From Methanohalobium evestigatum Z-7303 (lineage in GTDB: Archaea > Halobacteriota > Methanosarcinia > Methanosarcinales > Methanosarcinaceae): a stretch of 64,000 nucleotides of DNA. Of the stretch, positions 14,433-50,262 are shown piece by piece. The notes beneath the pieces were generated by a model. That model was not told where the DNA came from. It made no database searches and saw nothing but the letters and a program-made list of their open reading frames with translations. The stretch lies in assembly GCF_000196655.1 (NCBI RefSeq), contig NC_014253.1:620001-684000 (forward strand), read 5' to 3'. The position numbers and the translations under genes are program-made. Position 1 is the first letter of the stretch. Every line of letters starts with the position of its first letter.

Positions 14433-14490
14433 AGAAGAGGCTGGCAGAGGGAAAGAGAGGGGATGAATGCTTAGGTGGCCAGCCTCTTCT
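14433..14490 (-). ncRNA. Strong 13-bp hairpin RNA between small ORF and WIPK gene
   Basis: A perfect 13-bp stem (AGAAGAGGCTGGC at 14433-14445 with its complement at 14478-14490) closes a 32-base loop rich in G on the plus strand and C on the minus strand. It lies four bases after a 28-residue minus-strand ORF and about 40 bases before the WIPK gene start. It may be a leader regulator, terminator or small RNA. Strand is inferred from the genes around it. Confidence 0.45.
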
Positions 14491-37483: not shown

Positions 37484-39354
37484 TTCCTTTTGATAATTTG
37501 TTCGCTCTTGCATCACTGCTAAGTGTAATACCTCTGATTATATTATATCTTCTAAGACCAAAACCAAGAGTAGCGAGAATACCCTCATTGATGTTTTTGA
37601 TGAAGGTTGAAAAAGAGAAAAAGAAAATATATTCATCAATCACCAGAATTATAAAAGACCCATTATTTTTAATCCAGTTATTTGTCCTGATATTTCTTTC
37701 AGTTGCATCTGCAGGTCCTTTTTACACCTCTGAAGAACCATTAAGTAGTGAACATACAGTAATTGTCATTGATTCATCAGCAAGTATGCAGACAGACGGA
37801 AGATTTGATGATGCTATTTCCAAAGCAAAGAGCTATATAAGTCAGGAAAATACGGTTATACTTGCTGAAAATGTACCTGTTACTGCTCTGGAAAACGCTG
37901 GTGCATCAGATGCCAGAAATTTGTTAGATAAACTTAACCCAAAGGCTACTGTTGCTGACCTTTCAAGTGCTATATCCAGCGGGATGAGAATACTTTCAAA
38001 TCAAGGTGGAAGAATCGTAGTAATCTCAGATTTTACACACTGGCAGGGGCAGGACCCGGTATCTGCGAAAAAACTTGCTGAATCCTATGGATTAAATGTG
38101 GATTTCGTCAGGGTGGGTGAACCCACTGACAATGTGGGAATAATTCATGGTAATGTGGAAACCGAAGGCAATTCCTATTCGTATAGTTCCATTGTCAAAA
38201 ATTACAATGATGTTTCCAAAAACGTTGACATCGCAGTAAGAAACAACGGCCAAATCACAAAAACTTTACAATTTAATATAAATGCAGGTTCTACAAAGCA
38301 ATTCAAAGTAAGCAACCTAAAAAGAGGAATCACAAAAATACAGATAGAGGGACAGGACAGTTTAATGGTGGATAACACCGCATATGTATCTGTTCCGAGT
38401 TTTTCAGACAATGACGTTTTGCTGGTTACAGATAAAGATAATACGCCTTCAGAAACTGCTCTTTCACTTATACCAAATGTACAGGTTTCTGTTTCTGAGA
38501 ATATCCCAACACAGATAAATAATTATGATGTAGTTGTATTGTCCAATAACGAGCGGTCATTCAATGATGACGAAATATCAAGACTTGAAACATATACAAA
38601 CAATGGCGGTGAAATGGTATTTATTGCAGGAGAACAACTGGCTCCAGAAAACGCAAAAATAAGCCTGTTGCAACTTCTCCCTGTCAAAACCCTTGGTATC
38701 ACAGAGGCTTCTGATGGTGTAACATTAAAAGATGTACAATCCACCCAGCTTACAAACGACCTTAAACTGGACGAAATTGCGGTATATAAATATCTGAACT
38801 CAACTCCAAGAAGCGGTTCTACCACACTTATATCTACTGAAAACAACATCCCCATGCTAACTTACTGGACATCTGGTGAGGGGACTGTTGTTTATCTGGG
38901 GCTTAACGATAAACTCGGAGAAAATGCATGGAGCAATTTCCACAATCTTCCAGAGTATCCTGTATTCTGGGTTAAATTAATCGGATGGCTCGGTGGAGCT
39001 GGAGATGTAGTTGACTACAACATTGAGACTGGCACTATGACATCACTTTCACAAAGACAGACAATACAAACTCCTACTGGAAATCAGACAACAGAACGTG
39101 TACTGTACGATGAAGCCGGAGTTTATAAGGTAGCCGGTAAAACTATAGCTTCCAACCTTTTTGATGATAGAGAATCAGACACAACTATTGATGGTTCAGG
39201 TGTTATAGAACGTGCATCTAAAAACGGAGAACCTGAAATTGTAAGGTCTGAAACCTATACTGCAGAAAACGACCTTGATATTTACCTGATTGCAGCCGCT
39301 CTTTTGCTGATAATAACAGAAATATATATTATTAAAAAACGGGGTGAACTCTGA
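37477..39354 (+). CDS. BatA-type membrane protein with VWA domain
   Basis: A 625-residue protein. The N-terminal 80 residues have two TM helices in the aerotolerance-regulator (BatA) form: FALASLLSVIPLIILYLLRP and PLFLIQLFVLIFLSVASAGP. A VWA domain follows, with VIVIDSSASMQTDGRFDDAI as the MIDAS motif, then a beta-rich part and a glutamine-amidotransferase-like stretch; a C-terminal TM (DIYLIAAALLLIITEIYIIK) closes it. The GTG start overlaps the DUF58 gene, with AGGAGG just before it (spacing two to three bases, short). Its stop overlaps the ATG of the next gene. Confidence 0.85.
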   Translation: MVIPFDNLFALASLLSVIPLIILYLLRPKPRVARIPSLMFLMKVEKEKKKIYSSITRIIKDPLFLIQLFVLIFLSVASAGPFYTSEEPLSSEHTVIVIDSSASMQTDGRFDDAISKAKSYISQENTVILAENVPVTALENAGASDARNLLDKLNPKATVADLSSAISSGMRILSNQGGRIVVISDFTHWQGQDPVSAKKLAESYGLNVDFVRVGEPTDNVGIIHGNVETEGNSYSYSSIVKNYNDVSKNVDIAVRNNGQITKTLQFNINAGSTKQFKVSNLKRGITKIQIEGQDSLMVDNTAYVSVPSFSDNDVLLVTDKDNTPSETALSLIPNVQVSVSENIPTQINNYDVVVLSNNERSFNDDEISRLETYTNNGGEMVFIAGEQLAPENAKISLLQLLPVKTLGITEASDGVTLKDVQSTQLTNDLKLDEIAVYKYLNSTPRSGSTTLISTENNIPMLTYWTSGEGTVVYLGLNDKLGENAWSNFHNLPEYPVFWVKLIGWLGGAGDVVDYNIETGTMTSLSQRQTIQTPTGNQTTERVLYDEAGVYKVAGKTIASNLFDDRESDTTIDGSGVIERASKNGEPEIVRSETYTAENDLDIYLIAAALLLIITEIYIIKKRGEL

Positions 39355-41831
39355 TGGTATCCCTCCCTTTTATACCCCTATCTTTTGAACATCCTGAAAT
39401 TATCCTGCTTATAGTTCCTTTAATAATTGCAGCATTGTATCTTATCCATAAAGGAACAAATACACGAATTATAGAATCCAGAGTAATTATTATTTCCCTG
39501 CTTATTCTTGCACTGGCTTCTCCATATATTATGGTCAGCGAAACCAGAACCAATGAAAACCCCAACCTTGTTGTTATCTCTGACGAAACATCGAGCATGG
39601 AGTTGTTTGAAGGTGGTACAGGAGAACGAATATATGAATCAATGGCTTCAAAAACTCCCACATCAATGGTACGTCTTACCGATGAAAAAACAAATCTTGG
39701 AGATGCTATAGTACAAAACTCCGGCGGAGACAACCAGATTGTTATTGTTACCGATGGAAACAACAATAACGGTGAAAGTCTGAAAAGTGCACTGGAATTT
39801 GCCGATAACACCGAAACAAATGTATATGCTGTTCAACCTGAACTTGAGACAAACGATTTGAGTGTTCAGATGAAAGGGGATAAAACAGTTGTTTTAAACA
39901 ATGAAAATCAGTTTAAAGTGATTGTTTCACAGGCAAAGGATGAAACTATAAACTACGACCTTGAAGTCTATGCCAATGGTTCACTGATACGAAGCGGTAC
40001 TTTCACCCAATCAGAACGTGAAAAAACAATAGATGTCAAAAATACTTTTGAATCACTCGGTGCAAACAATCTGAGAGCTGTTATAACACCTCATAGAGAG
40101 GATATTGACAGCATCAACAACAGATTTTATAAATCCGTATATGTAATCCCGAAACCTAATATCCAGTTAACTGCCAACAATATAGATTCACCGCTTTCCA
40201 GAATATTGTACAACCTGTATGATGTTACAACCAGCAACAATTTTACAAATATTGACAACAAAAAGGCGGTCATTCTTGATAACCAGCACATAAATACACT
40301 TTCACAAAATGAGGTAGAAAAACTTAACAACTATGTCACAGACGGAAATGGGCTTGTTGTTGTTGGTGGTGACCAATCCTATAGTTTCGGAGGATACCTC
40401 AATTCAACTTTTGAAGAACTCCTTCCTGTGATTTCAAAACCAACAAAGTGGACTGGGGGGAGAAATATTGTACTGGTTCTGGATGTATCCCAGAGCACTG
40501 CTGCCCACGGTACTCAGAGTGATATTCTGGGAAATGCTGTTAACCTCATTCAGAACGAGAACCTGAAAGATGCTAATCTTGGAGTTATCGCTTTTGGTAC
40601 TGAAGGGGAAGATGTATCAAATGGACTTGTGTATCTGGGTATCCCATCAAACCGAGAACGTCTTGAAAATAAAATACGGAATCTTAAAACAGAAACCGAT
40701 ACTTCACTGAATTTGGGATTAAGTGTTTCACAGGAATGGCTTCAGGGTGAAACCGGTAAACTGGAAGTGATTGTTATATCAGATGGTGCCATTGGTTCAT
40801 CCTATCAGAAAAGCCTTGATATCGCAGATGATATGAAAAAGAAAGGAGTCAATTTCTATTTTGTAAACATTGAACCAAGCGACCCGTCAATAGAAGGACG
40901 TTATGATAATAGAGGTAATCTTTACGCCAAAAGGTTTATACAGGAAATAGAAGGGTCAACTGATACTTATTTCCAGATTCAACGCGGTCAGCGTGCCAAC
41001 CTTGTTTTTGAGGATTCTGATATTCCAGATGACGAAGATATTTCCGATTCTGGTCCTTTCCCAGTTATTGAATACAATTCCAACCATTTTATAACCAGAG
41101 ATATAAACATCACCGGCAATGTATCTGGTTATAATGATGTAACTCCAAAAGCAGGTGCACAAAGGCTTGTAATCACCACAAACGGTAAACCAATAGTCAC
41201 ATCATGGAGGTTCGGACTCGGTAGAGTTGTGTCCTATACCACTGATAATGGTTATGGAAGTGGAAATCGATGGGCTTCACAGATGTATTCCGGTAACAAC
41301 TCCAAACTTACATCCAAGTTGGTTAACTGGGCTATCGGAAACCCACGTGCTGAAGAAGGAATCGTTCTTAACGCTCCTGATGGATGGTCAGGAACACCTA
41401 TTGAACTTTCATTAACAAGGTATGATGAGGGAGGATTACCTTCTCTACAACTGGATGATAGAGATGATAATATAGAACTTTCCATAACTGGTGAAAATAC
41501 ATATAAAGGGTCTATAACCGTTGATAAAATAGGTATGCACGACATTTCCGGATATCCTATTGCTGTAAATTATGCTCTGGAATATCGTGATGTCGGGTTT
41601 AACGAAAACTTACCCACATTAATCAAGTCACACGGCGGAAAAATGTATACAGAACAGGAGGCACGTGCACTGCTACTTGATGATGCAAAAGAAAGTGCCA
41701 CAAAAACCGTCCAGACTCCATTTGATTTGAAAATGTACTTTATACTTACCGCGTTGGGTCTATTCCTGCTTGAAATAGTACTCCGCAGAGTAAGAGAAAT
41801 TCGAGAATATAAAAACACTGAAAATGAGTAA
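39354..41831 (+). CDS. Large membrane protein with VWA domain (MoxR operon)
   Basis: An 825-residue protein. N-terminal TM helices (PEIILLIVPLIIAALYLIHK and VIIISLLILALASPYIMVSE), an incomplete first VWA-like region, then a full VWA domain near residues 360-560 with VLVLDVSQSTAAHGTQSDIL as MIDAS and LEVIVISDGAIGSSYQKSLD. A glutamine-amidotransferase-like segment (VVVGGDQSYSFGGYLNSTFE) comes just before it. One C-terminal TM. It is the last gene of the MoxR operon and likely works outside or at the membrane with the BatA-type neighbour. Confidence 0.82.
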   Translation: MVSLPFIPLSFEHPEIILLIVPLIIAALYLIHKGTNTRIIESRVIIISLLILALASPYIMVSETRTNENPNLVVISDETSSMELFEGGTGERIYESMASKTPTSMVRLTDEKTNLGDAIVQNSGGDNQIVIVTDGNNNNGESLKSALEFADNTETNVYAVQPELETNDLSVQMKGDKTVVLNNENQFKVIVSQAKDETINYDLEVYANGSLIRSGTFTQSEREKTIDVKNTFESLGANNLRAVITPHREDIDSINNRFYKSVYVIPKPNIQLTANNIDSPLSRILYNLYDVTTSNNFTNIDNKKAVILDNQHINTLSQNEVEKLNNYVTDGNGLVVVGGDQSYSFGGYLNSTFEELLPVISKPTKWTGGRNIVLVLDVSQSTAAHGTQSDILGNAVNLIQNENLKDANLGVIAFGTEGEDVSNGLVYLGIPSNRERLENKIRNLKTETDTSLNLGLSVSQEWLQGETGKLEVIVISDGAIGSSYQKSLDIADDMKKKGVNFYFVNIEPSDPSIEGRYDNRGNLYAKRFIQEIEGSTDTYFQIQRGQRANLVFEDSDIPDDEDISDSGPFPVIEYNSNHFITRDINITGNVSGYNDVTPKAGAQRLVITTNGKPIVTSWRFGLGRVVSYTTDNGYGSGNRWASQMYSGNNSKLTSKLVNWAIGNPRAEEGIVLNAPDGWSGTPIELSLTRYDEGGLPSLQLDDRDDNIELSITGENTYKGSITVDKIGMHDISGYPIAVNYALEYRDVGFNENLPTLIKSHGGKMYTEQEARALLLDDAKESATKTVQTPFDLKMYFILTALGLFLLEIVLRRVREIREYKNTENE

Positions 41832-41951
41832 TTTTTAAAGAAAAAGTAGGGACGAGCGGGTTGGGGAGTGGGGTTTGTTGTGGGGGAGTGTGGTTGAAAA
41901 AAAGTCTTTTACCCGCTCGTTAATACTATAGTAAGATATTCAAGGTATAAG
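41830..41951 (-). ncRNA. Structured C-rich RNA, family member C
   Basis: A perfect 10-bp stem (ACGAGCGGGT at 41852-41861 with ACCCGCTCGT at 41911-41920) closes a 49-base loop. On the minus strand the loop reads ACTCCCCCACAAC then AACCCCACTCCCC, running into AACCCGCTCGTCC, the motif shared with 15.7 and 49.9 kb. A TATA-like CTTATACC (41951-41944) lies 24-31 bases before the stem, and TTTTTCTTT (about 41847-41839) follows it as a terminator, so transcription is most likely minus. Confidence 0.6.
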
Positions 41952-42073: not shown

Positions 42074-42577
42074 TTATTTACTAATCATTTTTACAATTTC
42101 CCGACCAAACGCATAAAGGTCATTGGGATTTCTTGATGTTATAAGATTTCCATCAACAACCACTTCTTTATCTTCATAATTTGCACCGGATACTTTCAGG
42201 TCATCCCTTACCCCGATGTAGCATGTAGCTTTACGTCCTTTAACCACTCCCGCAGATATCAGAATCTGTGCTCCATGACAGATTGATGCCACAGGTTTAT
42301 TTTTATCAAAGAAATGTTTTGTAATCTTAATCGCTTTTTCATCAAGACGAACTTTTTCCGGTGCTTTACCACCCGATATAACAAGCATATCAAAGTCATC
42401 TGGATTTATTTCATCAAAAGTCAGGTCGACATCTGCAGGATAGCCATGTTTGCCTGTTATGGTTCCCTTTTCCATCGATGCTATTTTAACATCAACTCCT
42501 TCTTCTTTAAGGCGATTGAGTGGATAGAATAACTCGAGGTCTTCAAAACCATCTGCACTTATTATTAACGCTTTCAA
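42074..42577 (-). CDS. DJ-1/PfpI family protein
   Basis: A 167-residue DJ-1/PfpI-superfamily protein. Nucleophilic elbow PVASICHGAQILISAG (catalytic Cys at about 105, followed by His), the Glu in SADGFEDLELFYPLNRL and the GGKAPEKVRLDE loop are present. Family members act as proteases or protein deglycases. It starts at TTG 42577 with a GGGGGG ribosome-binding site eight bases before, and no better ATG is in frame. Confidence 0.9.
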   Translation of the reverse strand: MKALIISADGFEDLELFYPLNRLKEEGVDVKIASMEKGTITGKHGYPADVDLTFDEINPDDFDMLVISGGKAPEKVRLDEKAIKITKHFFDKNKPVASICHGAQILISAGVVKGRKATCYIGVRDDLKVSGANYEDKEVVVDGNLITSRNPNDLYAFGREIVKMISK

Positions 42578-49700: not shown

Positions 49701-50262
49701 CCAACTAAATCCAGTTAACAGTGTCCATGTTAAATACCACATTCAATACTTTGTAAAAATATATTTAAATATTAGATACAAAACTGGTTATGTGTAAATT
49801 GATGATATAATATTAAATTAATAATATAATATTGTTTTAGGGCACTTATATAAAGTATTAACTAAATCAAGATTATATCGGGTAGAGGAAGGTTATTAAA
49901 AAATAGCCCAGTGCTAAAATTAAAAAACGGTAGTTGGATGGCCCCCACTCCTCAACCCGCGGATTAGCCCCCGCTTGAATCCGCTGGCTGGATGAACCGC
50001 TCCTCTACCCGTTTATTTGGATATTGTGAACCTATTGTTCACTATACCAATCCTTACTATAAGAATATAAATATATATAATAAACGTTGCTTAATTTTCC
50101 TCCACGTTAAATATTACAAAGGCTTTAAAATTTTCAATGGCTATTTGATCACTTAACTACCTTAATTAACATTGCTCAGCAATCCAGTTCAGTAATTAAT
50201 TTTCCAAAGGACTATTTCTACAAAACAACAATATTAACCCTATACGGGGGATATCAGTTGAA
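49701..50262. other. Gene-free stretch containing RNA D
   Basis: No convincing ORF. The first part is AT-rich with several TATA-like segments; 49846-50011 holds the structured RNA described separately; the end has ATACGGGGGATATC, the ribosome-binding region of the subtilase gene. Confidence 0.5.
49846..50012 (+). ncRNA. Structured C-rich RNA, family member D
   Basis: An 11-bp stem (CGGGTAGAGGA at 49879-49889 with TCCTCTACCCG at 50001-50011) encloses about 110 bases. Inside is a hairpin GCGGATT (49959-49965)/AATCCGC (49978-49984) with loop AGCCCCCGCTTG, and the shared motif GCCCCCACTCCTCAACCCGC at 49941-49960. A strong TATA box TTATATAA (49846-49853) lies 25-32 bases before the stem, so transcription is most likely plus, on the C-rich strand. 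No ORF fits the region. Confidence 0.65.

Follow-up and report, generated by a model that had tools for sequence, protein, structure and literature searches.

The analyzed window covers 64,000 nt of the genome of the halophilic methanogenic archaeon Methanohalobium evestigatum Z-7303 (NC_014253.1, positions 620,001-684,000). Between a VWA-domain-like membrane protein gene on the plus strand (39354-41831) and a DJ-1/PfpI-like gene on the minus strand (42074-42577), both ORFs named by the appearance of their sequences, a hairpin-forming element occupies positions 41841-41922. Read on the plus strand, ACGAGCGGGT (41852-41861) pairs with ACCCGCTCGT (41911-41920) in a perfect 10-bp stem. On the minus strand the 5′ arm, again ACGAGCGGGT, lies at 41911-41920 and was recognized from sequence, fold and covariation, while the 3′ arm, ACCCGCTCGT at 41852-41861, was recognized from sequence and fold. 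The stem is single and encloses an open loop of 49 nt, whose minus-strand sequence includes ACTCCCCCACAAC and AACCCCACTCCCC. In the 5′ half of this loop there is a U-tract, UUUUUUU (41897-41903), followed by a first C-rich motif, CACUCCCCC (41882-41890), and by a second one, CCCCACUCCCCA (41862-41873), which family comparison identified as conserved.

On the same strand a TATA box, CTTATACC (41951-41944), precedes the stem by 24-31 nt, and CTACTTTTTCTTT follows it. The corresponding box of the sister species is CTTATATG. A T-rich tract past the stem, TTTTTCTTT (41837-41845), is the likely end of transcription. The first-pass annotation had described the perfect 10-bp stem, the loop motifs, the TATA box and the T-run past the stem, and all of them are present in the sequence. 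The DJ-1/PfpI-like gene, the same-strand neighbour upstream, ends approximately 150 nt ahead of the predicted RNA; the latter is preceded by a TATA box of its own.

Folding of the hairpin minus strand yields -18.2 kcal/mol (z = -4.1), a value equalled by none of 200 shuffled sequences; the plus strand gives z = -2.6. The decamer of the stem is unique in the window, even when one mismatch is allowed. The window contains nine GC-containing stems of at least 9 bp with loops of 25-150 nt (2.5 expected), and among such stems a loop with at least 40% C or G did not occur in 30 Markov shuffles of the window.

A DNA search revealed a relative with 81% identity in the same genome, as well as matches to the core in 31 of 60 relatives. 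Scanning of named genomes with a sequence pattern retrieved 108 stretches, nearly all from Methanosarcinales (Methanosarcina, Methanolobus, Methanococcoides, Methanohalophilus, Methanomethylovorans, Methanosalsum, Methanoperedens and ANME-2). Since the search pattern contains the C-rich core, the invariance of the core in this set arises partly by construction, and for the same reason a covariance model (R1), which was trained on members of the pattern type, was used to search the genomes independently of the pattern. In the window R1 has a single match (41850-41922, 56.8 bits, E = 2.5e-11), and this copy shows all the features that characterize the family: a loop closed by a stem, a U-tract followed by CCCCACUCCC, and a TATA box approximately 33 nt before GAGC. 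The original designation of the hairpin as "member C" had implied siblings within the window; R1 finds one copy there, and the true siblings are located elsewhere in the genome. The host genome consists of a 2,242,317-bp contig and one smaller contig, and the copies lie at positions 661850-661922 (the window copy), 1384001-1384060, 1555414-1555489 and 1087641-1087697 of contig C1. Judging by sequence, there is strong support for regarding the window hairpin as one of four genomic copies of a small non-coding RNA family.

Of 149 genomes of the order, 147 gave R1 matches at E ≤ 0.001, with 1-14 copies in each, and at E ≤ 0.01 up to 18 copies were found in one genome. The latter number was observed in a Methanoperedens-like genome (G083, genus g19), whereas most other genomes carry 2-5 copies. 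No copy was detected in genera g9 and g10, whose genomes are 1.5-1.8 Mb in size and partly incomplete. In a phylum-wide sample, matches occurred in 19 of 120 genomes, all of them belonging either to the family of M. evestigatum or to a second family of its class, and none of the 120 genomes gave a match outside this class. Rfam 15 has no match in the window at gathering score; only chance matches were obtained, outside the hairpin and far below the gathering scores. The family lacks an Rfam entry, and therefore genome annotation overlooks it. In the papers covered by a literature search, which included searches with sequence strings, no description of the family was found. The RNA-seq catalogues of Methanosarcina mazei and Methanolobus psychrophilus, which count 208 (PMC3600222) and 195 (PMC5378194) sRNAs, respectively, may already list single copies.

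The orientation of the predicted gene is indicated by its promoter. Among 62 non-redundant members with unrelated upstream sequences, only the C-rich strand shows a sharp maximum of TATA-like octamers, between -31 and -36 relative to GAGC, and such a box is present in the expected zone in 89% of copies on the C-rich side versus 32% on the other side. In the window the box starts at -33, which is the peak position of the family. Runs of at least four T residues past the stem occur in 59% of members, compared with 25% for the A-run control. Promoter elements of M. psychrophilus are reported approximately 19-22 nt from the transcription start (PMC5378194), and this spacing would therefore place the start of the window RNA at approximately 41922-41925, in agreement with the start near 41921 proposed in the first-pass annotation. 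The RNA gene (41841-41922, minus strand), with a predicted length of approximately 80 nt and a start at approximately 41921-41925, takes its ends from the TATA spacing and the T-run. The earlier claim that an RNA of this size is transcribed from the minus strand, convergently with the VWA gene, is backed by the strand-specific TATA box, covariation in the stem, the intergenic location of the copies and the T-runs, and we regard the presence of an RNA gene on this strand as almost certain.

The stem is under selection for pairing. In 25 diverse members, the outer stem pairs have changed on both sides in 30 cells, as opposed to 12.9 after shuffling, and none of 500 shuffles reached this value. 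Concerted changes also affect the GAGCGGG core (A-U to G-C and G-C to A-U, among 72 deduplicated arm pairs), and compensatory variants of GAGCGGGT include GAGCAGGT/ACCTGCTC and GGGCAGGT/ACCTGCCC. Moreover, the unrelated stems GAGGCATGTGG, TTGCACGGGTGG and GGTATTATTGGCC enclose the same C-rich loop. The loop retains a U-run, which comprises at least four residues in 98% of the non-redundant members, and after it between one and three CCCCACUCCC motifs. Within 1.8 Mb of sequence, 96 hairpins contain CCCACTCCC and none the reversed motif CCCTCACCC; this control is generous, because the motif itself had served to retrieve part of the loci. Family membership, strand, promoter position, selection on the stem and loop conservation were all obtained by computation. 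As the same loop is kept on unrelated and exchanged stems, the loop is the conserved functional part.

Hairpins with stems GAGGCATGTGG and TTGCACGGGTGG were found in Methanolobus-type genomes (L285, L288, L317 and L327). With their different stems and the same U-tract and C-rich loop, they are predicted to be further sibling RNA families. Locus L310 (G011:C1:2615300-2618800) contains two C-rich regions approximately 1.2 kb apart, with two and one CCCCCACTCCCC motifs, respectively, in addition to U-tracts, and these are possibly larger multi-motif relatives.

The copies are intergenic (only 3 of 49 overlap an ORF), and a same-strand neighbour is located downstream of 14 and upstream of 21 of the 48 copies considered. 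With so low a share, the copies cannot in general be explained as leaders, terminators or 3′ UTRs, and a cis-regulatory leader or riboswitch was rejected on the basis of the downstream count. In the window, a 3′-UTR hairpin or terminator of the VWA or DJ-1-like gene could be suggested by the distance of 20 nt from the VWA stop codon and by the T-run on the minus side. However, other copies have varied neighbours on either strand along with their own TATA box, the plus strand has no T-run after the hairpin, the loop of 49 nt is large, and no terminator-like site was found, so this explanation is very improbable. Even less credible is a mobile palindromic DNA element of the REP or MITE type without RNA function. 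Such an element would account for the multiple copies, up to 18, that are scattered over a genome, but the plasmid, phage and viral-contig collections contain no match to the family, and the promoter, the compensatory stem changes and the synteny across genera at three loci all argue against it. The plus strand carries four tandem G-runs, and the functional molecule might accordingly be a G-quadruplex in RNA or DNA; yet that side lacks a TATA peak, the loop contains just two G-runs in many members, and the U-tract and T-runs make sense on the minus strand only, which renders this explanation very unlikely.

The three loci at which neighbours are kept across genera lie near the genes for topoisomerase VI-B and the RFC large subunit (topoVI-B/RFC), an hppA-like pyrophosphatase gene and dnaG, names read off the protein sequences by eye. 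These loci are old. The window locus, with its VWA and DJ-1-like genes, is confined to Methanohalobium. The closest relative of the window copy is the copy at the hppA locus: both carry the T-run and the first of the two C-rich motifs. The window copy is a genus-specific relative of this older copy. At the topoVI-B/RFC locus, 11 copies, mostly from Methanolobus (e.g. L102, L118 and L141), are preceded by a palindrome-like sequence, TCATCATAATGATGA, approximately 20 nt before the TATA box. It is a possible binding site for a regulator and may have a connection with the "cold box" that has been reported.

We propose that TBP and TFB would start transcription at the TATA box (41944-41951) and that the polymerase would terminate within the T-run (41837-41845). 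The stem would close and protect a large single-stranded loop displaying the U-tract and two C-rich motifs. The RNA is inferred to act in trans, its C-rich motif pairing with G-rich stretches of the GGGGAGU type in ribosome-binding sites (RBSs) and thereby blocking the translation of a subset of mRNAs, while the U-tract may be a docking site for an Sm-like (SmAP) protein. Taken as a whole, a small RNA gene with trans-acting RBS pairing is our preferred but tentative reading, held with slightly less than even confidence. The M. mazei sRNAs studied so far act mainly by covering RBSs (PMC5867862, PMC6560208), and C-rich loops are reported to cover them in Staphylococcus (PMC3961350).

Support for RBS pairing from the genome itself is modest. 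Among 314 start regions from a sample of the host genome, none of 42 7-mers of the same composition is more frequent than GGGGAGT (five cases), which is complementary to ACUCCCC, and 8 regions contain any native 7-mer versus 2 with a reversed one; GGGGAGT is thus weakly over-represented in start regions. Duplex energies over the same 314 regions were no better than those of reversed or shuffled loops, giving no sign of general RBS binding, and reading by eye of the few genes with GGGGAGT-type RBSs revealed no common theme. No long mRNA complement conserved between genera was found. A thiC-like gene is preceded, at a distance of several hundred nt, by a 17-nt perfect complement of the small RNA, GCGGGTTGGGGAGTGGG, which lies within a long, conserved, leader-like region (L004/L160, G000:C1:2114792-2115222, minus strand), and a shifted version is present in the sister species; this complement is restricted to the genus and not conserved across genera. 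Outside the RNA genes, GGGGAGTGGG is scattered in coding sequences, tRNA antisense strands and other C-rich hairpins.

Conservation of a 10-12-nt loop motif throughout a class is not what is usually seen in a seed whose mRNA targets change, and would be equally consistent with a protein-binding site. The U-tract and the repeated CCCCACUCCC may therefore bind an Sm-like, KH or other RNA-binding protein, which the redundant sRNAs would titrate, as CsrB and RsmZ do with CsrA. Retention of the loop on unrelated stems, the variable number of motifs (1-3) and copies (1-18 per genome), the lack of a general preference for start regions and the lack of a conserved long mRNA complement are all in line with such a decoy. 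Its partner protein, however, is only hypothetical, and the C-rich motif also fits pairing with G-rich RBSs. As the function of the RNA, protein capture is almost as likely as RBS pairing, and we consider the decoy a serious possibility, if one we would sooner doubt than accept. The more specific proposal that the loop is the site of an as yet undescribed global RNA-binding regulator of Methanosarcinia, with the sRNAs as its titrating decoys, so that archaea would have an equivalent of the Csr/Rsm system, is speculative and rather unlikely. Orthology with M. mazei sRNA41, an RBS blocker in acetyl-CoA decarbonylase/synthase operons, would agree with its origin in the same order and with the mechanism given in reviews. 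This identity is nevertheless improbable: in a comparison based on targets, the loops of three Methanosarcina copies did not preferentially match the RBSs of the cdh operons. Of these, just the cdhE-like RBSs rank within the top 2-5% for the Methanosarcina loops, a result that applies to the family only.

Bacterial CsrB, RsmY and RsmZ decoys have a repeated short motif in exposed loops and several redundant genes, and the sequence of their stems is of little importance. The present family shares these properties, but it combines a C-rich motif with a U-tract, while the CsrB/Rsm RNAs use a GGA motif and titrate CsrA-type proteins of bacteria. M. mazei sRNA162, sRNA154 and sRNA41 are likewise intergenic and come from the same order, and they are known to have single-stranded, RBS-blocking segments (PMC3510493, PMC5867862). 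However, sRNA154 and sRNA162 each contain at least two stem-loops, in contrast to the one closed loop of this family, and the conservation described for sRNA154 is within Methanosarcina, whereas this family is multi-copy and class-wide. Identity of the window RNA with sRNA154 or sRNA162 was rejected on the basis of its single stem with an open loop. RsaA-type sRNAs of S. aureus also contain an unpaired C-rich (UCCC) motif able to pair with the Shine-Dalgarno sequence (PMC3961350), but they belong to another domain and are not homologous, and the general RBS preference tested here was not found. A further set for comparison is formed by the nine conserved, intergenic, cold-induced sRNAs reported from dRNA-seq of M. 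psychrophilus (PMC5378194), a species of a genus that carries the family.

The family is near-universal in an order of methanogens and methane oxidizers that is of major ecological importance, and has one simple architecture with an almost invariant exposed loop. It is also present in the genetically tractable Methanosarcina, with three copies in one such genome, so that a class-wide RNA regulator would be directly testable. To our knowledge, a function has been established for few archaeal small RNAs, and the majority have been described from a single genus. The class-wide scope of this RNA family goes beyond what the sequence of a single hairpin could reveal.

Other RNA-like elements were noted in the window and elsewhere in the genome. 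At 49835-50030 (plus strand) a TATA box, CACTTATATAAAG, is followed by an 11-bp stem, CGGGTAGAGGA/TCCTCTACCCG (49879-50011), and the element includes a CCCCCACTCCTCAACCC motif; it has z = -3.0 and is conserved in the genus only. At 14433-14490 (minus strand), immediately after an apparent minus-strand stop codon, there is a perfect 13-bp stem, AGAAGAGGCTGGC, whose loop is rich in C and T; it looks like a 3′-end hairpin, not a member of the family. Two loci of the same genome outside the family, L159 (G000:C1:2084031) and L151 (G000:C1:118739), contain similar G-rich segments, GACGTA.AGGGG...GAGTGGGG, and possibly represent another pair of C-rich RNAs.
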